From an uncultured bacterium (GTDB taxonomy: Bacteria; Planctomycetota; Phycisphaerae; Phycisphaerales; SM1A02): a DNA stretch of 64,000 bases. The first letter of the stretch is position 1. Every line of letters begins with the position of its first letter. The stretch spans positions 1-64,000 of the forward strand of contig CAIXJC010000043.1 in assembly GCA_903919715.1 (NCBI GenBank), given 5' to 3'. This document shows, in pieces, positions 1,080 through 14,379 of this stretch. Under the pieces are notes generated by a model. That model worked only from the letters and a program-made list of their open reading frames with translations. It was not told the origin of the DNA and did not search any database. Made by a program: the position numbers and the translations under genes.

Positions 1080-4000
1080 CTATCTCGGCGAGGCAGGATC
1101 GGCGCCATCGATCGGCTGCGAACCATTCCAAATTCGCCCTGCGATCTTTTTTACATCGTCGATGATGTAAATAACTGACGGCAAAAGTATCAATGTCAGC
1201 GCCGTCGCACTGACCAACCCACCGCTGAGCGTGATCGCCATCGGCGCCACAAACCGCGCCTGAAACGAAGGCTCTAAGACAAGTGGCGCGAGTCCAAGAA
1301 TGGTCGTGACCGATGTCAACAAGATCGCTCGAATGCGCTTCTCTCCTGCAAGGACCAACCCCTCACGCAGCGGTCGACCAGCTGCGACTTCGATGTTTAC
1401 AAATTCGACCAGCACTAACGCATTGTTCACGACCACACCGGCAAGGGCGACCAGTCCGATCACGCTCAAGAATGTCAAGTCAGATCCAAGCAACAAGTGA
1501 CCGCCAACCATTCCGATGACTCCAAACGGAATCGAGATCATGACTGCAAGTGGCTGCGTGTAATTCCCAAAGAGCCACGCAAGAATTGCGTAGATCATCA
1601 AGAACGCCGCCGCAATCGCAAGCGGCAGCGTTGCGAATGCCTCAGTGAGATCGCGCTGACGGCCACCCTCGCGCAGTCGCACTGACGGATGTGCGGCGAT
1701 CAACTTCGCGATATCACCGCTCATTTGTTCCACCACCGCTTCGGGATACGTATCAGCTTGTGTATCGCCTGTCACAGTGATTGTTCGCATGCGATCAAGC
1801 CGATTGATCGTGCTCGCACTTGTCCTCTCACGAATTTCCGCTATTTCACCCAGAGGCACAGCAATACCAGAAGGTGGAACGACCCAAAGATGATCGGCGA
1901 AATCTCCATGTGATCGCATTCGATCATCCAAGCGAACTCGAACATCAACATCTTCGCGGTTGTCACTGAAGACATGCGCATCCAAACCATAAAGCGCTCC
2001 GCGTACTTGACGAGCGATATCCGCAGGAGTGAAACCAAGCGCAGCGGCACCGGGCCGAGGAAGAATTTGCACTTCAGGCTGAGCGTCAAAGTCATCATCA
2101 GCGACGCTCAGAACACCGTGCACCTGCGCGATGAGTTTCTTGATTTGCGCGCTCACATCACGAACCTCTTCAATGTCGTCACCAGAAATCTGATACGTAA
2201 TGTCTGCCCCAGCAGGACCTCCGGATATTTCTTGAACTGACACAGACTCCGCCTCGTCGAGCGGACCCGCCGCTTTCAAAATCGAATCCATCACGTCGGC
2301 TGAACGGCGAGATCGCTCTTCGACTGGCGAAAGTTCCACGAAAATCTGCGCTAAATTGCTGGAGGAACTATCTGCAATCGCCGTTTCATAATTGACGCGA
2401 AGACCATAGATCGAAGTGATCGCACGTACATCGGGTTGAGCTCGGGCTGCTTTTTCAACGCGAGCGCCGACGACCTTTGTGAGATCCATGCTGGCTCCAA
2501 GGGGAAGACGAATTTCAACGATCGCAGTTTCCGAATCGTTGCTTGGAAGAAACGTGAACGGCAATCGCCCACCCACCACAAGCGCCACGGAAATGATGAA
2601 TGCGGAAATGCCAGCGGAAACCGTCAGATAGCGGCGATCGATGCACCAGAAAGCTGTTCGGCGATAGCACCGCTCGATTGACGGCCAGAGCCAATGCTCG
2701 CGCCAGCGATCAATTGGGCGCATCAGGCGATCGATCATTCCAGTCTTCCCCGCACGTTCACGAACAATCCCGACCGCCATATGTCCAGGCAGAAGCAGAA
2801 TCGCCTCGAGCAAACTGATCAACAGAGCAAGCGAAACAACGATGGGAAGTTCGCCCAAGATGTCGCCAATCCGTCCCTGAACCAAGACAAGAGGAATGAA
2901 CGCAACAATCGTGGTCACCGAGCTTGCGACGACTGGCCAGAGGACCTTGCTCACGCCGTCGAGGACATTTTTTTCAACATCGCCCCCACCAGACGCTTCG
3001 ATCTCAATGCTCTCCGACAACACGATCGCGTCATCGGCGAGCATGCCAAGCGTCATTAACAAGGCAAACATCGTCAGCAGGTTTAACGAAATCCCAGTGA
3101 GGTCCATCACCAACAATGTGCCAAAGATGGCGACGATAATTCCAAGAGTCACGAAACATGCAGCTCGCCAGTGCACTCCAAGAAGCAGTGTGATGAAGAC
3201 AAGCATTCCGCCTTGCAACGCATTGCGTGTCAACAAATCAAGCCGATCTTCAATCAGTTTCGCCAAGTCATTATGCTTTTGAATCGAAACCTGCAGCGGG
3301 CTGCGCGATGCGCCAAGCTTCCATCCGTCCATCCGCTTTGAGCCGAAGAGTCGCTCCCAAATCGATGGATTCAGCGGTTCACTCCGACGCGCCGCGACAT
3401 ATCCACGCGTGAATTGCGCCATATCAACTGCATCTTGCTGACCCTTGCGAAACACGGTGCAATTCGCCGAAGGTTCGCCATTGAACTTGCGGACAACTTC
3501 TGCGTCAGTAAATCCTTCCTCGACCTTGGCGATATCGCCGACATGCACAAGACCGCCATCGGGATATGCCTTGACGACAATTTCGCGAATTCGGTCTGCT
3601 CGCTCTTCAACGCCAAGCGTTCTCACTTTCACTTCCCCATCAGCGTTGCGAACGCTCCCACCCGGAATTTTTCGCATCCACGCTGACACAACATCGGCAA
3701 CTCTGGTGATTGGAATCTCGTGACGCAACAAATCTTCATGGTTCACTTCGATGCGCAGTTCGTCATCGCGAGTTCCACTGATCACCACTTGTCCCATTCC
3801 AGAGAAAGTCTTGAGGTCGTCTGCCACCTGCCGAATCGAACTCTTGAGTGTCTGGTTATCCGAGTCGCCATACACCGTGACCTGAATCACAGGCAGATTT
3901 GGCTCGAATTCTGTCACGCGAATTCGTTCGGCATCAGCCGGCAAATCCGTCAGCGACTCCAGCCGATCGCGAAGATCTTCGACGCGCCGACGCACGTTGA

Positions 4001-4298
4001 CTCCACCTTCAAACTTGACGACGATTCCGCCACCGCCTTCGGAGACCGTCGTCTCGAGTCGATCCACTCCGTCGACTTCTACGGCAAGGTCTTCGACGCG
4101 CCGGACCAGAGATTCCTCAACTTCTTGAGGCGACGCACCGGGATACAGAAGAAGGATGCGAGCGGAATCGGGTGCGATGTCCGGAAAGAATTCGCGTCGA
4201 ATGTGAAACGCGGCAAAAATTCCGCCCGCAATGATGCTCACCGTCAAGAGATTCGACGGGACGTGATGCCGAATGAAAAAACGAACAAGCCCGTTCAT
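1080..4298 (-). CDS. RND-family efflux transporter (AcrB/MexB-like inner membrane pump)
   Basis: About 1072 residues, the normal size for a proton-driven RND exporter. It begins with a cytoplasmic stretch and first membrane helix (FFIRHHVPSNLLTVSIIAGG), followed by a large periplasmic loop, a block of helices around residues 340-500, a second periplasmic loop and a final helix block. The helix-4 region reads GMLADDAIVLSE, retaining the paired Asp used for proton relay in AcrB-type pumps. The ATG at 4298 forms a 4-bp ATGA overlap with the upstream adaptor gene, so the two are translationally coupled; the longer open frame upstream overlaps the adaptor and is rejected. No outer membrane channel gene lies in this operon; the TolC homologue at 23.5 kb belongs to another operon. 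Substrate (drug, metal or lipid) cannot be assigned. Confidence 0.93.
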   Translation of the reverse strand: MNGLVRFFIRHHVPSNLLTVSIIAGGIFAAFHIRREFFPDIAPDSARILLLYPGASPQEVEESLVRRVEDLAVEVDGVDRLETTVSEGGGGIVVKFEGGVNVRRRVEDLRDRLESLTDLPADAERIRVTEFEPNLPVIQVTVYGDSDNQTLKSSIRQVADDLKTFSGMGQVVISGTRDDELRIEVNHEDLLRHEIPITRVADVVSAWMRKIPGGSVRNADGEVKVRTLGVEERADRIREIVVKAYPDGGLVHVGDIAKVEEGFTDAEVVRKFNGEPSANCTVFRKGQQDAVDMAQFTRGYVAARRSEPLNPSIWERLFGSKRMDGWKLGASRSPLQVSIQKHNDLAKLIEDRLDLLTRNALQGGMLVFITLLLGVHWRAACFVTLGIIVAIFGTLLVMDLTGISLNLLTMFALLMTLGMLADDAIVLSESIEIEASGGGDVEKNVLDGVSKVLWPVVASSVTTIVAFIPLVLVQGRIGDILGELPIVVSLALLISLLEAILLLPGHMAVGIVRERAGKTGMIDRLMRPIDRWREHWLWPSIERCYRRTAFWCIDRRYLTVSAGISAFIISVALVVGGRLPFTFLPSNDSETAIVEIRLPLGASMDLTKVVGARVEKAARAQPDVRAITSIYGLRVNYETAIADSSSSNLAQIFVELSPVEERSRRSADVMDSILKAAGPLDEAESVSVQEISGGPAGADITYQISGDDIEEVRDVSAQIKKLIAQVHGVLSVADDDFDAQPEVQILPRPGAAALGFTPADIARQVRGALYGLDAHVFSDNREDVDVRVRLDDRMRSHGDFADHLWVVPPSGIAVPLGEIAEIRERTSASTINRLDRMRTITVTGDTQADTYPEAVVEQMSGDIAKLIAAHPSVRLREGGRQRDLTEAFATLPLAIAAAFLMIYAILAWLFGNYTQPLAVMISIPFGVIGMVGGHLLLGSDLTFLSVIGLVALAGVVVNNALVLVEFVNIEVAAGRPLREGLVLAGEKRIRAILLTSVTTILGLAPLVLEPSFQARFVAPMAITLSGGLVSATALTLILLPSVIYIIDDVKKIAGRIWNGSQPIDGADPASPR

Positions 4299-5611
4299 CG
4301 AGTGGCAGCTCCAGCCTCCGATGTTGGAAGAGATTCCTTTGGTTGAACGCGCGCACCAGGCGCAACCGTTCGGCCGCCATCCGCTGCGAGGACGATCCCA
4401 TCCGCAAGCGGCACCTTCAAGACGATCCACTCAACATCAGAAACTCCCGATCCTTCGATCGCACCTCGATACGAATGCGAAACGATCACCGGACGAGAAT
4501 GCAGCGTCCCGTCAACCAATTCGAGCACGCGGTCGGCGCGAATCGATCGACGTGGTATCGCTGTGTGCGCTGTTGAATCTGCCGACTCGATCAATGCTTC
4601 GACAAATGCTCCAGGCGAGAGTCGATCCGCGGAATCAGTCGTTTGATGCATCTCAACATAGACCGCCATCGTTCGCTCGATCGGGTCATCTTCGGGCTCG
4701 ATTCGTGTCACCTTTGTTCGCACCGTTCGAGGCGTCTGCCCGCCGACTTCAACGGTAACGGGGTCGTCAATGCGAATGAATCCACGCGCCGATGCTGGCA
4801 TACGAATGGCGATTTCAACACTCGTGACATCAACGACGCGCGCCACGACCTGACCCGGCGTTACATTTTCGCCGACCTCAAGATCGAATCGTTGCAGCAC
4901 TCCACCGATCGGGCTGACGATCCGACATCGCTCAACATTTTTTTGCGCATTATCTCGGATTATTTTCTGTATTTCATCCTGTGCTGCAAGAGCGGCCCGC
5001 TTGGGAGCCACCTGGTTCAGCGCCTCGCGCAAGATTAATTCTGACCGCTCCGCTGCGATCGTGATTTGACGCGCTCGATCAAGTTCACGTCCAACGGCAG
5101 CGCCCGACTGGACCGCCTCGCGAACGCGAGCCTCATCACTGCGGATCAAGCTCGCATCTTCCTGAGCCAATTCAATTCGAGCCTCAAGACCTTTTTCCTC
5201 AACGAGCAGCGAGCGCAATTGAGCATCGATTGCCGCGAGTTGTTGACTGGAAGAATCCAAAACGCGCCGAAAGTCCTGATCATCCAACTGCAACAGAAAT
5301 TGTCCTGGGGCAATCACCGAGCCAGCCTTGCTTGCCGATGCAATTTCGATCACGACCCCTCCGACACGTGCGGGAATATCGTCCGAATCGAGCGCGCGAA
5401 CTGTTCCATATCCAACCCATTGCCGAGGCAACTGCACCATCCGCGGCTTGAACACCGCGATGGAGTGAGCCGCTGCACGATCGTCATTGACTCCTGGCAT
5501 TGGCCGAGTCAGCGCTAAAACGATTAAGACAGCAATCGAACCGCCGACCATTCCGAGCGACAGAATGGCTCTGATGATTCGCGTTCTGGTCGATATATGC
5601 GGGGCGTTCAT
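4295..5611 (-). CDS. RND efflux periplasmic adaptor (HlyD/AcrA family)
   Basis: A 438-residue membrane fusion protein that would link the adjacent RND pump to an outer membrane channel. One N-terminal membrane segment (IIRAILSLGMVGGSIAVLIVL) is followed by a lipoyl/barrel-sandwich half (IASASKAGSVIAPGQFLLQL), a long helical hairpin (about 125-215), the second lipoyl half (IVSPIGGVLQRFDLEVGENV), and beta-barrel and membrane-proximal domains. The ATG at 5611 is preceded by a G-rich possible ribosome site and is chosen over a start eight codons earlier. It is first in the adaptor-pump-ROK operon and divergent from gatC, with about 100 bp between the starts in which the promoters of both should lie. 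Confidence 0.9.
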   Translation of the reverse strand: MNAPHISTRTRIIRAILSLGMVGGSIAVLIVLALTRPMPGVNDDRAAAHSIAVFKPRMVQLPRQWVGYGTVRALDSDDIPARVGGVVIEIASASKAGSVIAPGQFLLQLDDQDFRRVLDSSSQQLAAIDAQLRSLLVEEKGLEARIELAQEDASLIRSDEARVREAVQSGAAVGRELDRARQITIAAERSELILREALNQVAPKRAALAAQDEIQKIIRDNAQKNVERCRIVSPIGGVLQRFDLEVGENVTPGQVVARVVDVTSVEIAIRMPASARGFIRIDDPVTVEVGGQTPRTVRTKVTRIEPEDDPIERTMAVYVEMHQTTDSADRLSPGAFVEALIESADSTAHTAIPRRSIRADRVLELVDGTLHSRPVIVSHSYRGAIEGSGVSDVEWIVLKVPLADGIVLAADGGRTVAPGARVQPKESLPTSEAGAATR

Positions 5612-9259: not shown

Positions 9260-10579
9260 ATGGCAAAGCTTTTTTACACAATCGACGAAGCCGCAGCACG
9301 ACTCGGCAAATCCGAGTCAGACCTGCAGAAAATGGTCAACTCTGGGCAACTTGAAGAGTTCAAGATGCACGACCAAGTGCACTTCAAGCGAGCTGTCATC
9401 GACCAACTCGTGGTCGACGACAGCGATGACTTGGTACTTCCTGGCGACGACGATCTCGATCTGAGTGATTCGAGCATCAAGAGTTCACCAACACCTGCCA
9501 TTTCGCTCAACGATGCCTCAGGCAGTGCAATAATTGATGATTTGAAGTTCGATGACGATGCGCCAACTGCTCCTGCGTCAAAACCATCTGCAAAGTCAGA
9601 AATGGATTTGGGCATGGATTTGGGCATGGATTTGGGCATGGATTTGGGACTCGACTTGGGACTGGATTTGGAACTCGACTTAGATGAAGGCGTGAAATCA
9701 GCCAGCGCTGGAGCCAAGGCCCCGTCGACTTCCTCGAAGCCAAAGGTTGATGCCTCAGGGCCAATCGACTTTGGAGATCCAATCGGTTTGGTGGATTCTG
9801 CGGATGCGAGTGGAATTGCTCCAGCCGCTCCCGCAAAGAGTTCCACCGGATCAGGCTCGAGTCAAAATTTAGGTAACGATTTGGATCTTGATTTAGGTTT
9901 GGATTTGGGTCTTGATGACGCCCCGCCAACTAAATCAGCCCCAGCAAAGGGTGGCATCGATCTCATGGGAGATAGACGTGGGGACTCAGCCGCAGCGATG
10001 GCTGCCTCTGACGCAAGCGGTTCGATGGCGCCCCCAACAAACCGCCGCCCTGCGCCACAAAACGATGACTTTTTGGATGTTGGCTCCATGACTGGTTCTG
10101 GAAGCCTTTCACTAGAAACTGTTGGATCTGGCAGCGGAATGCTTGATGACTCAACTGATTCTGATCAATCCACTGTTGGCGCCGCACTTCTGGATGACGG
10201 CGGCGACGATACTTTTGGAACTGGCGCTTCGCTTGGCGGTGCAAGCGGGCTCTTTGCGGAGCCAACCGGCATGGATGGCTTCGATCAAGACTCCGATGAC
10301 TCTGTTCCAATGGCAGCATCTGCGATTGGCGGCGGAATGGTGGCGATGCAAGTTGAACGCGTCGAAAGTGCCAGCAGCGGAATGGGATTAGGCTTGATGG
10401 TCGGATCGCTCGTTGCAATCGTTTTAGCCGCTCTCGTCGTGATGGGGAGCCGCATGGGCGGTGGATCCGCACTCGCTGCAATGATCACCCAAGACTGGAT
10501 GATGTGGTGCGGCGGACTGGCGATTGGAACTCTCGTCGCTGGTGGAATCGGATTCTTCGTCGGCAAGTCACTCGAGTGA
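9260..10579 (+). CDS. Helix-turn-helix domain protein with acidic repeat linker and two C-terminal membrane segments
   Basis: A 439-residue protein. Residues 1-60 (FYTIDEAAARLGKSESDLQK ... MHDQVHFKRAVIDQL) resemble the excisionase/MerR-type winged helix-turn-helix found in many planctomycete proteins. A long acidic, low-complexity linker follows, including seven 12-bp units encoding MDLG/LDLG-type repeats (9602-9685) and later Ser/Gly/Asp-rich stretches. Two hydrophobic segments close the protein (GLMVGSLVAIVLAALVVMG and a final WCGGLAIGTLVAGGIGFFVG). This architecture suggests a membrane-tethered DNA-binding or protein-binding factor; what it binds is unknown. The ATG at 9260 is chosen because the domain begins there; the frame upstream overlaps mutY. 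Its stop overlaps the GTG start of the next gene (GTGA). Confidence 0.8.
   Translation: MAKLFYTIDEAAARLGKSESDLQKMVNSGQLEEFKMHDQVHFKRAVIDQLVVDDSDDLVLPGDDDLDLSDSSIKSSPTPAISLNDASGSAIIDDLKFDDDAPTAPASKPSAKSEMDLGMDLGMDLGMDLGLDLGLDLELDLDEGVKSASAGAKAPSTSSKPKVDASGPIDFGDPIGLVDSADASGIAPAAPAKSSTGSGSSQNLGNDLDLDLGLDLGLDDAPPTKSAPAKGGIDLMGDRRGDSAAAMAASDASGSMAPPTNRRPAPQNDDFLDVGSMTGSGSLSLETVGSGSGMLDDSTDSDQSTVGAALLDDGGDDTFGTGASLGGASGLFAEPTGMDGFDQDSDDSVPMAASAIGGGMVAMQVERVESASSGMGLGLMVGSLVAIVLAALVVMGSRMGGGSALAAMITQDWMMWCGGLAIGTLVAGGIGFFVGKSLE
9602..9685 (+). repeat. In-frame 12-bp tandem repeat encoding (M/L)DLG units
   Basis: Seven consecutive 12-bp units, the first three identical (ATGGATTTGGGC) and the later ones diverging at synonymous or conservative positions, encode alternating MDLG and LDLG. 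The period is a multiple of three, so copy-number changes keep the frame of the helix-turn-helix protein. Confidence 0.9.
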
Positions 10580-11241
10580 TTCTTTCTTCTTACGGTCTTC
10601 GAGAATGGGGAATGGCGACCGCCGCGGCGTGCGCAATGATTATTCTCACTGGCCCGATCTGGTGGGTAGTCATTCTCGTGGGGATTTTCTGGTTTGCGGC
10701 TGCGGCGTTCTTTCGAGATCCGCTCTTTCGAAAACCAGCAACCAACGATTCAACAGACCTTGTCAGTCCAGCGGATGGCGTGGTCTCCGCAGTCTTGACG
10801 GTCGATCATCATCCCGCAACCAATGGCCCCGCAACAATCGTCCGAATTTTCTTAAGCGTTCTTGATGTTCATATCAACCGAATGCCATGCGCAGCGACTG
10901 TTGTTTCAATGACCCATACTCCTGGCCGTTATCTCGATGCGAGATCAGCAGAAAGTGCGCAAGTCAATGAATCCAACCTCATTGTTGTGAAGACTCGTGA
11001 TGGCGATCTCTTGGGAGTACGACAGATTTCAGGCGCAATCGCCCGCCGAATCGTCTGTCCGATTTCCATCGGGGACTCCTTCGATCGTGGCCAACGATTC
11101 GGCATGATTAAATTCGGCTCGACGACGGAACTCATTGTGCCAACGAGATCGACAATGACTGTCCGAATCGCCAAGGGAGATCGAGTCGTCGGAGGCGTCA
11201 CGATTCTTGTTGCGCTTCCGCCACAATCGACCAACCCTTAA
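10576..11241 (+). CDS. psd: Phosphatidylserine decarboxylase proenzyme (short, archaeal-type)
   Basis: A 221-residue pyruvoyl-dependent enzyme predicted to make phosphatidylethanolamine from phosphatidylserine at the inner membrane. Two N-terminal hydrophobic segments (about 10-45, ending FFRDP) are followed by LVSPADGVVS, the conserved FLSVLDVHINRMP and the self-cleavage site FGST, with Gly-Ser at about 181/182 near the C-terminus; the Ser would become the pyruvoyl group. The GTG at 10576 gives a 4-bp GTGA overlap with the preceding gene and a good family N-terminus (ILSSYGLREWG). No phosphatidylserine synthase gene lies next to it. Its stop lies within the palindromic TTAA at 11238-11241; a second, remnant copy of this gene end lies at 13196-13216. 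Confidence 0.88.
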   Translation: MILSSYGLREWGMATAAACAMIILTGPIWWVVILVGIFWFAAAAFFRDPLFRKPATNDSTDLVSPADGVVSAVLTVDHHPATNGPATIVRIFLSVLDVHINRMPCAATVVSMTHTPGRYLDARSAESAQVNESNLIVVKTRDGDLLGVRQISGAIARRIVCPISIGDSFDRGQRFGMIKFGSTTELIVPTRSTMTVRIAKGDRVVGGVTILVALPPQSTNP

Positions 11242-11265
11242 CTCGGATCCGCAGGAAAATCGGAT
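11221..11265. repeat. Left 45-bp imperfect direct repeat flanking the decarboxylase island
   Basis: This segment contains the last codons of psd and, beyond TTAA, a minus-strand remnant matching the end of the pseudo-receiver/GAF gene. It aligns without gaps to 13196-13240 with four mismatches. On the minus strand it reads SSDFPADPS then stop, against SSDFPADSG then stop in the intact gene. The two copies bracket the AT-richer decarboxylase gene. Confidence 0.85.
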
Positions 11266-11429
11266 GAGGGATCTTGGATCGTTCTATTACCCGTGTCGTA
11301 GCCGACATGAATCTTGGTGAGATCGATGCGGGTAATGGTCCACCTAGCGCATTGTCAAGCATTGGATGCGACGAGCTTGCTCGACTGCGGTGGCGAGCAT
11401 TCGTGCAAAGCTGCGAGACCGACGGAACT

Positions 11430-12887
11430 TCACGCGTGCGTGCCGAGCAATGCTTTCAATTCTTCAAAGTAACGATCAAAAAACTTGTGGTATGCCCCTT
11501 CTTCTTGATGCGGCATGGCGATCGTGTGGGCTCTATTTTTTTCAGGCTCCGCGGCAATACTATAAGTTTTACGCAACTCACTACTCAAACCTGTATGCCA
11601 GGGATATACAACCGTTGTCGAAAAAGGATTTCGCCAGGCTTTCACCAGTCTTTCATCTTTACTCGATAGCCCTGAAAGCTCTAGCCGTCGATTAAATTCG
11701 GCAATCGACCAATCCGCCAGCTTATAACAATCTGCTGCCATTTTCTCATACCGGGCTTTTCCGCTCAGGCCATCTTTTTCAATGTTGAGCGCGAGCCATG
11801 TCATGACTGGCAGGATGCCGATCCTCGATCCGCCTATGCAATTATCTTCCGATCCAATATATGGGATGACTTTGCCTTTATGCGTAACAGTATTTACATA
11901 AAAAAGGCCACCAGGGACTGCAGTCCCGATCTGTTTGCTCGTGCTCACTGCAAGCGAGTCGAAATGTACTTTGACTTCATCCCAATAACTTATGTGTTCC
12001 CCATCATTAAATGGCAGGAGCATCATTCCCAGAGCGCCGTCACCATGGAGATGGAAATCCTCAATTTCGAGTTCCGCCAATAGGTGGATTATTTTCCTCG
12101 AATCCTCTACCGCACCTGTCATGGTTGTTCCAAGATTAACAATAATGATCGGGACAAATGGCTTTGATTCTTTATCTGCCAGCTCCGCTTGCAGTTCTCG
12201 TTTTCGGTTATTGTTAAAAACGATTTGATCCTGAATAACATTTGTGCCGTTCGTCGTTTTTGAAATAGGCAGCAATGCTTTCGTTAATACATCAAGCTGC
12301 TCTATATTTATTTTTATAGCCTGTAATTCTTCTTCGTATTTCGTTTTCTGTTGGACAAGAACGTCTTTCAGATGCCCATAATCCATTTCTCCACTTTTTT
12401 GAGACTTAATCAGTGGAAAATCAACCGCATTGTGATTCGCCAGACCCAGAATGTCTGCACATTTATCCCCACTGTAATGGGTCTGGTCGGAATAGAACAT
12501 CTTTCCCCATGGATACTTCGTTCGAGCATTGAGCATCGAGTTGATATTGCCGAAAGTTCCCCCTTCGACTACCTGCCCTACAAAGTCCGCGCTCAAACCA
12601 AAGAACTCCCGAAAGGAATCAACGACTTTCTGTTCAAAGCCGAAAGCATTCAGGCTATAGGTTCCTCCTGATGCGTACCCTCCCAGATTGGCTATGAACT
12701 TATCTGCCAAATGACTAATTTCGGAAAGATAACTGATATCAAGGTTAAACGGATACCCAAGCATGAGGGGCGTATGCTCATCTATATAGGCATTATAATT
12801 TTTAATTTGGCTCATTATTTGCAAGGGAAGCACAAAGCCATCTTTCAACGGCTTGCCTTGCATACTTTCGATTACTTCCGACTTCAT
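11430..12887 (-). CDS. PLP-dependent group II decarboxylase, histidine-decarboxylase-like, probably horizontally acquired
   Basis: A 485-residue pyridoxal-phosphate enzyme. Recognisable parts are EGGTFGNINSMLNAR (about 108-122), SDQTHYSGDK with the His that stacks on PLP (about 137), NLGTTMTGAVED (about 251-262), HGDGALG with the PLP-binding Asp (about 283), and STSKQIG with the Schiff-base Lys (about 318). The layout is closest to PLP-type histidine decarboxylases, but substrate assignment is tentative. A charged helical insertion of about 60 residues (about 181-242) separates the N-terminal PLP motifs from NLGTT; I do not expect it in the usual enzyme. The gene is visibly AT-richer than its neighbours, has a clear ribosome site (AAAGGAAT, about 5 bp before ATG), stands alone, and lies between duplicated junction repeats, all pointing to transfer. 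Confidence 0.82.
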   Translation of the reverse strand: MKSEVIESMQGKPLKDGFVLPLQIMSQIKNYNAYIDEHTPLMLGYPFNLDISYLSEISHLADKFIANLGGYASGGTYSLNAFGFEQKVVDSFREFFGLSADFVGQVVEGGTFGNINSMLNARTKYPWGKMFYSDQTHYSGDKCADILGLANHNAVDFPLIKSQKSGEMDYGHLKDVLVQQKTKYEEELQAIKINIEQLDVLTKALLPISKTTNGTNVIQDQIVFNNNRKRELQAELADKESKPFVPIIIVNLGTTMTGAVEDSRKIIHLLAELEIEDFHLHGDGALGMMLLPFNDGEHISYWDEVKVHFDSLAVSTSKQIGTAVPGGLFYVNTVTHKGKVIPYIGSEDNCIGGSRIGILPVMTWLALNIEKDGLSGKARYEKMAADCYKLADWSIAEFNRRLELSGLSSKDERLVKAWRNPFSTTVVYPWHTGLSSELRKTYSIAAEPEKNRAHTIAMPHQEEGAYHKFFDRYFEELKALLGTHA

Positions 12888-13195
12888 TTTCTATTCCTTT
12901 CAATTGCCGACGAAACATTGCATTGATAGGAATTCGCATTTGCAGTGTCGCGGGCGAGCTCCCGTTCAATCCACTGAAAGATGGCGTTACCGTGACTCAA
13001 GTGTAATGACATGGCGGGAAATAGCAGGACATTCCCACGCGAAAGCCACGGCGAATTTCAAATTACGTTTGGCACACCTGCTTCAGCGCGGTCGTTCGCA
13101 CTCCGAATCAGCAATCAGATCCCGCAGTCATAGTCCAGCATCGGATCGTCAAGCCATTGTTTCGATGACGAATTGACCTCGATTCAGGGCACGAA
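12888..13195. other. Non-coding stretch upstream of the decarboxylase gene
   Basis: About 300 bp between the decarboxylase start and the right repeat. It contains the ribosome site of the decarboxylase and presumably its promoter. Apart from short open frames with no recognisable protein character I see no gene. Base composition is higher in GC than the decarboxylase gene itself, so it may hold decayed sequence from the donor. Confidence 0.5.
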
Positions 13196-13240
13196 CCACA
13201 ATCGATCAACCCTTAACCCGAATCCGCAGGAAAGTCGGAT
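13196..13240. repeat. Right 45-bp imperfect direct repeat flanking the decarboxylase island
   Basis: It aligns to 11221-11265 with four mismatches. Read on the plus strand, its first part encodes PQSINP then stop, a remnant of the psd end (PQSTNP then stop). Read on the minus strand, its second part is the true C-terminus of the pseudo-receiver/GAF protein. The shared TTAA serves as stop on both strands. Confidence 0.85.
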
Positions 13241-14379
13241 GATGTATCTGGCGGCGAATCTAGTTCCGAATCCGAAGGTAAGTCCGGCGATTCCTTCGGC
13301 CACTGCGGTTGTGCTCGCATCAGAACGCGACGAACTCGAGCCAATCCACTCGCGAATGCTGGTCCGACAGCTCGCGCCACTTTTTCAAGATCTGGACTGA
13401 ATGGTCGCTGTCCGTCGCGAAAGAGAAAGATAACTGCACAGCCGTTAATGGGATCGAGATTGGGACAGGCAAATGCGAAGACCGATCGTCCAGGAAGAAC
13501 GCCCGACAATTCAGCAAAGCGCGCGGAGGGTGGATCGCTTGGCCCAAATCGGATGACGCCAGGCTGCGCCGCCACCTTTGCGCACCACAGGCTTGCGAGA
13601 TGTTCGACCAATCCGCCTGCGGCACGCCGCGACAAGTCGTCCCGCACATAACCGGCGAGGCGATACTGCCCATGATCCTGCAGAAAAATCGCTGCATTCG
13701 TCACGCCGACGCGGGCGATCAGATAGCGCGTACTCAACTCCACAATTGACTCGACTTCGCTTTCCTGCGCGAGCAACATTCGGCATTCAGCCTGCATCGA
13801 TGCAACTCCTTCTCGATCACGTGCGCTCTCTTCCGCATCGGCGAGATGTGCGCATGCCCCGCCGAGTTTTTCTTCAAGCTCTTTGCGCTCATGCGTCAAT
13901 CGACGGCACGCATTTTCCAACACAACGAGGCGCTCGCCACGAACACGGTCCATGATGGCGTTCTCGATCCTTCCCGCGACTCGACTGACGGTTGATTCTT
14001 GCTCACCCCAATCGCAGCCGTCAATCCAATCGTTAATCCCCAATCTGAAAAATTCGGCAACGACAATTGCAGCTGGCAGTTCGCCGACGATGATGATGCC
14101 TGCGAATGGAAATGCCTTGCGCAGAACGCTCACGAGACGACTCGTTCGTTCACCGATCATCGCAATGTCTATCACCACACAATCGATCAATCTTCCACGC
14201 ATCCAACTGACCGCTTCACGTGCGGATTCAACTCGGTCGACACGCGCGGTCCGCAATATCTCGCGACAATCGTCCGTTGAACGAGTCACAATCGGCCACG
14301 TGATTGCACCGATGAACAACACATTGGCTCGCCCGTTAATCGGTCCATTGATCCGTTGAAATTCGCTGACGTACTTCAT
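13213..14379 (-). CDS. Pseudo-receiver / coiled-coil / GAF domain protein
   Basis: A 388-residue cytoplasmic protein. Residues about 18-135 have the strand-helix rhythm of a response-regulator receiver domain (VLFIGAITWPIV ... DCVVIDIAMIG ... GIIIVGELPAA ... GINDWIDG), with a possible acceptor Asp in VVID, but the conserved Lys near the end and the Ser/Thr switch are not evident. A helical region rich in Glu/Arg (about 145-200) leads to a GAF-like domain (about 205-360, ISTRYLIARVGVTNAAIFL in outline). The tail is Asp/Ser/Pro-rich. It probably senses a small molecule or relays a signal without phosphorylation. It is last in the DUF1573, phosphoesterase, tsaB operon, about 60 bp after tsaB. 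Confidence 0.65.
   Translation of the reverse strand: MKYVSEFQRINGPINGRANVLFIGAITWPIVTRSTDDCREILRTARVDRVESAREAVSWMRGRLIDCVVIDIAMIGERTSRLVSVLRKAFPFAGIIIVGELPAAIVVAEFFRLGINDWIDGCDWGEQESTVSRVAGRIENAIMDRVRGERLVVLENACRRLTHERKELEEKLGGACAHLADAEESARDREGVASMQAECRMLLAQESEVESIVELSTRYLIARVGVTNAAIFLQDHGQYRLAGYVRDDLSRRAAGGLVEHLASLWCAKVAAQPGVIRFGPSDPPSARFAELSGVLPGRSVFAFACPNLDPINGCAVIFLFRDGQRPFSPDLEKVARAVGPAFASGLARVRRVLMRAQPQWPKESPDLPSDSELDSPPDTSSDFPADSG

Follow-up and report, generated by a model that had tools for sequence, protein, structure and literature searches.

A decarboxylase gene with a decayed IS91-related companion between long direct repeats at a convergent gene junction in an uncultured lineage of the Phycisphaerales

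How does a single metabolic gene come to lie within a conserved pair of convergent genes, bracketed by direct repeats that each hold the ends of both neighbours? The question is raised by a locus in the 64-kb stretch of DNA analysed here (the window), in which positions 11221-11274 and 13196-13249 form a pair of direct repeats of 54 nt, with 89% identity and 6 substitutions (E = 1.1e-12 when the window is compared to itself with BLAST). A preliminary description of the locus had reported four substitutions between 11221-11265 and 13196-13240; a script count returns the same number over that 45-nt span, and the alignment extends beyond it to the full 54 nt. The longest in-register exact run between the two copies is 12 nt, and no third copy was recognized above chance in the organism's own genome with a 210-base query starting with the left copy.

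In each copy the final 17 nt of psd lead up to a TTAA shared by the two genes, beyond which lies the terminal part of the opposing gene, an arrangement already recognized in the preliminary description and now borne out by both the reading frames and the alignment. The left neighbour, psd (phosphatidylserine decarboxylase, 10576..11241, plus strand; PF02666, 1.5e-36), whose end was compared with that of its relatives, has its open frame closed by the left repeat, which thus consists of the functional psd end, the shared TTAA and a remnant of the end of the other gene. Conversely, the right repeat consists of a psd-end remnant, the shared TTAA and the functional end of the right neighbour, whose open frame on the minus strand (13213..14379) it closes. 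This neighbour had been described as a pseudo-receiver/GAF gene: a receiver match is indeed present in its product, at a level below the Pfam cut-off (Response_reg, 5.4e-4), while no GAF domain was found with Pfam and no match of any kind with NCBIfam. Throughout the text "GAF" is therefore only a label kept from the earlier description.

The state of the junction before the insertion can be recognized in related genomes. The GAF-labelled protein has a match in 55 of the 61 genomes searched, the window's genome counted, and psd and the GAF-labelled gene are adjacent, convergent and free of any insert in 17 of the 18 other genomes of the same genus; the eighteenth (G017) has no GAF-labelled match and was left out of the junction scoring. 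None of the 17 relatives with a scorable junction carries cargo there, so that the comparison returns an empty, single-copy site and no site occupied by something else. The distance between the two stops in these 17 genomes, calculated by script, ranges from an overlap of 56 nt to a separation of 88 nt; a 4-nt TTAA overlap occurs in the five relatives with the most similar psd (G009, G012, G011, G016 and G002, 81-83%), as expected from the earlier proposal that the two genes met at TTAA, and is absent from G015, which has a psd at 74% and a GAF-labelled protein about as close as those of the five. Among named records the nearest psd matches are planctomycete metagenome assemblies, including several Phycisphaerales from Lake Baikal. 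Since the junction is empty in 17 relatives of the genus, the insertion is best read as derived in the window's lineage. At one place the psd ends differ in coding: the right repeat has an Ile codon where the left repeat has Thr, and Ile is found at the aligned place in 4 of the 5 nearest relatives; this codon, which can be either a relic or donor sequence, is a point against the capture proposed below.

The gene between the repeats (11430..12887, minus strand) has an open frame for a histidine/serine-decarboxylase-like PLP enzyme of 485 aa. The product matches the histidine decarboxylase model NF002748 (3.6e-66, 223.4 bits, below the cut-off of 305) and the PDB chains 7erv (1.6e-32) and 8jij (2.3e-29). 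It aligns with these histidine and serine decarboxylase chains along two stretches and, at their STSK/SGHK motif, retains the lysine, which we take to be the PLP-binding residue; it differs from them in about 60 residues (181-243) that lie between the two aligned stretches and have no counterpart, and in its score below the NCBIfam cut-off. Among the 19 genomes of the genus the gene occurs in the window's own and is absent from the other 18. It is likewise found in 1 of 392 genomes of the phylum at 1e-10 (the own genome) and in 6 of 397 genomes of the class at 1e-5, the five besides the own genome being at 31-40% identity. The 51 plasmid records that match it are all below 60% identity (26-32% among the matches listed, the best 20 of 51), as are 2 phage records, and peptide patterns, whose reach is limited to close relatives, did not find it in viral contigs. 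No donor was found among the genus, phylum and class genomes or the plasmid, phage and viral records searched.

The composition of the gene is foreign to the window: its GC (0.44), its GC3 (0.445) and its codon score are each lower than in any of the 38 other long ORFs of the window, which were chosen mechanically as having at least 200 codons. The preliminary description had called for a calculation of this kind, and had allowed that a decarboxylase conserved and codon-matched throughout the lineage would speak against an insertion; the gene is instead an outlier in GC3 and codon usage and is confined to one of the 19 genus genomes. Its frame of 485 codons has stayed open amid surroundings that have drifted by about 15%, which suggests selection for function.

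In the DNA between the start of the decarboxylase and the right repeat, the preliminary description overlooked the end of an IS91-related element: the stretch from 12922 to about 13185 corresponds to the 3' end of a decayed element of this kind, with the last transposase codons and the complete terminus. The terminus (12922..13006), complete but mutated, reads ATTGATAGGAATTCGC..., and 2 of its 30 pattern positions are changed; the consensus of this terminus is able to fold as a hairpin, and the element runs rightward from 12922. Further in (13012..13185, minus strand) are the 3' untranslated part and the last ~20 codons of the transposase, frameshifted and cut, which match the copy at locus L155 at 75.6% and whose C-terminus was compared with the frame at locus L152. 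The remnant is similar to 14 further places on 8 contigs of its own genome (E≤1e-3), and relatives match it too. Its complete end points at the decarboxylase, 34 bp ahead of the ATG, and lies 274 bp from the right repeat. A reading of the dispersed repeats in this flank as integron attC sites was dropped once the transposase had been recognized, and an outward promoter in the element end was rejected because promoter-like sites are no commoner there than in shuffled sequences.

Copies of the element have one sharp terminus, ATTGATAGGA(A/C)TTCGC..., outside which the flanks are unrelated and inside which the C-terminal codons of the transposase follow. The frame of 406 codons at L152 (genome G012) matches Y2_Tnp (PF04986, 6.6e-22) and the IS91 model NF033538 (1e-34, 120.2 bits with a cut-off of 125); about 80 N-terminal positions of the profile are unmatched, and the N-terminus of the frame may be missing. 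The motifs HPHLH (HUH) and YYGWY, with Y255xxxY259 (YxxxY), identify in L152 the HUH/Y2 transposase of the IS91 family, of which the window holds the last codons only. Transposase matches occur in 10 of the 19 genus genomes; apart from the L152 frame, they consist of fragments or of shorter frames. Matches to the terminus pattern number 13 in the own genome and were obtained in 17 of the 151 family genomes, while the reversed control pattern has none among the matches listed for those 151. The element departs from the IS91 family in two respects: similar terminal bases are present in inverted order in L228 and L148, whereas IS91 elements, as described in PMC5714925, are without terminal inverted repeats, and there is no fixed tetranucleotide beside the surveyed end: across 39 of its flanks the information content does not exceed 0.14 bits from position -9 to -1 and is 0.30 bits at -10, and any of ten IS801-type tetranucleotides occurs in 1 of the 39, about the chance level. 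We thus regard it, on its sequence features, as related to IS91 and not as a textbook member. No flanking duplication was found at the two-ended copy L228 or at the 1.3-kb inverted-end pair L148, a sample of just two two-ended cases. Of 48 element ends, 20 (a raw count) have a putative ORF of 100 aa or more whose start lies within 60 bp outward, and the outer flank in the window is the poorest in GC of the 48 (0.42). At L148 (contig C28 of the own genome, 4156-5491) the two inverted ends enclose a 252-aa ORF and no sequence that matches the transposase, possibly a passenger-bearing, non-autonomous copy. A second dispersed repeat, with ends TGGACTTCCCC...GTGGACAC, lies near the IS91-like copies in L150 and L221.

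At the right border of the island, an alignment of element copies keeps the transposase similarity clear to about 13183 and weak over the ~10 bases that lead to the right repeat; the BLAST match with L155 carries to 13206, 11 bases inside the repeat. A border test was run on four element copies out of the 13 other rows of this alignment. The copy L187, which is the same place as L155, has 16 of 19 matching columns across the border into the psd-end remnant (p = 0.006, 500 shuffles), making a microhomology join plausible; against it count the values for the three other copies (p = 0.09, 0.26 and 0.69) and the ~10 bases ahead of the border, which fit neither the element nor psd well. A reading of the right inner flank as eroded psd was rejected (p = 0.42 and 0.67). 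Because a separate later insertion would hardly end at this place, the decarboxylase and the element probably arrived already joined, with a breakpoint inside the transposase gene.

The left inner flank (11275..11429, 155 bp) has no plasmid match and no detectable remnant of the GAF-labelled gene. A loose near-register alignment to that gene gives p = 0.49, and the values under three scorings (0.15-0.38), with the genes of five relatives (0.11-0.73) and with anchored alignments (0.21-0.26) led us to reject such a remnant. In searches of 151 family genomes, with at most five candidates scored per genome, 97 of the 151 matched at E≤0.5 and the best match outside the own genome had an E per genome of 0.003; comparison with the other loci analysed returned short, low-scoring matches only. 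The proposal that follows does not explain these 155 bp, which also hide the left join; this counts against it.

We propose, with a probability of about one half, that the locus is the product of a one-off illegitimate capture of IS91-linked foreign DNA at the psd-GAF junction, by which about 43-54 bp of the target were duplicated. A foreign piece carrying the decarboxylase gene with the IS91-related element beside its start would have been captured a single time, in the window's lineage only among those sampled. The incoming DNA, broken inside the transposase gene, would have been joined to the last codons of psd, perhaps at the short similarity CCAC-ATCGAT, and its other end would have been joined ~33 nt past the TTAA; with overlapping chromosomal breakpoints, for example where replication left its template and returned slightly behind, some 43-54 bp would have been duplicated and each neighbour would have retained one working 3' end. 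The spare halves of the repeats and the element would then have drifted, while the decarboxylase stayed open. The fixed points of this scheme are the empty site, the foreign composition of the cargo, the element remnant and the nearness of its end to the repeat border; from the sequence we infer the joint arrival, the microhomology step and the template switch. According to passages of PMC5714925, insertion of the IS91 type leaves no direct repeats, so the element alone does not explain those seen here: it would account for the company of the gene, and illegitimate joining with overlapping breakpoints would account for the repeats.

The age of the repeats bears on this scheme and on its main rival. 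In the GAF-gene half, where the left copy is free to drift, 5 of 33 positions differ, and in the psd half 1 of 17, while the island's element terminus, compared with a consensus built from 30 copies, differs by 16.7% over 60 columns; only four of the 30 are more diverged. Since 5/33 is close to the divergence of the remnant, the two repeats may have started out identical, as an exact duplication followed by drift, albeit with few (33) positions to judge from. Drift is thus enough, and the DNA of a relative, to which the preliminary description had appealed because of the divergence of the repeats, is not needed to explain it. Such DNA would nevertheless be the source of the repeats if a circle or fragment carrying the psd-GAF junction of a close strain had recombined at the site, by a Campbell-type single crossover or by homology-facilitated integration. 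We consider this a tentative alternative with an appreciable but minor chance of being correct. The repeats do contain the ends of both genes, which is what one expects of a carried junction, but a donor with a transposase fused to the end of psd needs an explanation itself, and a 54-bp match whose longest exact run is now 12 nt offers little for homologous recombination. Homology-facilitated illegitimate recombination, as presented in PMC3240628, resembles the island in that small DNA is integrated with one end joined illegitimately, and differs in that no homologous anchor is identified in the island.

Parallels at other copies of the element were surveyed in 41 element-bearing entries, which represent 40 distinct places (L150 lies inside L226) and 291 kb, by searching for direct repeats of at least 35 nt that enclose element sequence and themselves consist of it to no more than 20%. 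Qualifying repeats were recognized at 7 places (the window, L143, L150/L226, L158, L221, L222 and L223) and, under the same thresholds, at none of sixteen control loci around psd (251.6 kb), a comparison biased by the abundance of mobile DNA at the element loci and by their closeness to contig ends; it suggests a recurrent process behind the repeats at related loci. The window itself has two other repeat pairs, 28598-28758/30939-31099 (88%) and 29902-29967/32756-32821 (80%). A general rule that element copies are bracketed by target repeats was rejected: the repeat of L143 has a further occurrence on a different contig and includes part of the element, that of L158 is found again in its own genome at 97%, that of L150 adjoins another dispersed repeat, and the L223 repeat is made of the contig's own identical ends. 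The latter contig (G012:C31, 3452 bp), with a decayed IS91-like transposase aboard, has its first and last 72 bp identical, and may therefore represent a circle or tandem array of ~3.4 kb.

The parallels that remain are L221 and L222. In L221 (G001) a 222-nt direct repeat of 96% identity (3844-4065 and 5291-5512) includes the end of a 16S rRNA gene; within the ~1.2 kb that it encloses, a decayed piece of 16S lies on the left, and 57 bp separate a transposase fragment from the right copy. In L222 (G011:C111, 2039-4913) repeats of 61 nt and 87% identity surround two ORFs, an element end and pieces of element and transposase, with the reserve that the element end is repeated there too, in a second repeated pair that overlaps it. 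By eye the two ORFs are pyruvyl-transferase-like and glycosyltransferase-like. The repetition in L222 of both the element end and the nearby 61-nt stretch speaks as well for the homologous capture considered above, as do L143 and L158, where repeats of an element piece with its adjoining DNA bracket other sequence.

These same loci are relevant to the possibility that transposition itself, of the IS91-like element or of another transposon since lost, produced a long target duplication. The 222-nt repeat at the 3' end of 16S rRNA in L221, with a transposase fragment between its copies, and the 61-nt repeat around element pieces in L222 favor it; we nonetheless consider it quite unlikely, as L228 and L148 are without flanking duplication and the complete end of the window's element faces the decarboxylase and not a repeat. 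Conventional target duplications of transposons are shorter than ~15 bp and lie next to the element ends, and are rejected here with repeats of 54 nt and an element end 274 bp from the nearer one. In a wider form of our proposal the IS91-like family of this planctomycete family would be a habitual agent of capture, with target duplications of 54 to more than 200 bp, often at the 3' ends of genes; its independent products would be the locus in the window, L221 and L222, and perhaps L143 and L158 as well. We hold this reading to be unlikely. If it were true, a rolling-circle transposase would be coupled to a duplicating integration step, which is not described for IS91 in the portions of PMC5714925 and PMC3189936 concerned with these elements.

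An attachment-site island, also suggested in the preliminary description, would have been integrated at the convergent ends by a recombinase whose gene was later lost, the 54-bp repeats being attL and attR. Both the length of 54 bp and the location at gene ends are typical of att sites, and both neighbours retain a working end. This mechanism is not supported, however, and appears improbable: a Pfam scan of the three island ORFs, beyond which no further ORF of at least 110 aa lies wholly between the repeats, returned no recombinase or integrase, none of the 17 scorable relatives carries cargo at the junction, the core is found nowhere else in the genome above chance, and the right inner part consists of an IS91-like end terminating at the border. 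A chimera of the assembly is highly improbable, for although the genome is in 85 contigs and a number of element copies are situated at the ends of contigs, synteny with relatives extends to both neighbours, the repeats have no in-register exact run longer than 12 nt, and the remnant has diverged from the other copies.

These results can be set against the known systems of gene mobilization. In the anatomy of ISCR elements an IS91-related transposase adjoins an acquired gene. The window has this arrangement in common with ISCR, which is named in the part of PMC5714925 that concerns us, together with a weak match of NF052416 (54 bits, with a cut-off of 925); it differs in that its remnant is cut and decayed and that no repeated unit with different cargo was seen. 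With IS91 and IS801, whose right-end fragments and mobilization of adjacent genes by rolling-circle transposition are treated in PMC3189936 and PMC5714925, the element has in common an HUH/Y2 transposase, the occurrence of solo ends of a few hundred bp from the transposase side, and an association with non-native genes. It differs in its similar inverted ends, in the lack of a fixed tetranucleotide beside the surveyed end, in having the cargo outside the complete end, and in long target repeats flanking the locus. In passages of PMC3189936, right-end fragments of IS801 are moved with adjoining DNA by one-ended transposition, while its genomic fragments are mostly thought to be products of rearrangement. 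In the parts of the open-licence literature covered, no report was found of an element such as this one or of duplications such as these.

Overall we interpret the locus as a lineage-specific gain of a gene with a decayed IS91-related companion and an unusually long target duplication: for the most part ordinary genome evolution, in which the length of the duplication and its parallels in L221 and L222 stand out. A single foreign metabolic gene would have come to lie within a conserved pair of genes in an uncultured lineage, with the frames of both neighbours left open, and the IS91-like family, whose terminus occurs in 17 of the 151 family genomes sampled, is indicated as a companion of such transfers. 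Should more captures show long target duplications, they would point to a second, testable route of integration for capture of the IS91 type.
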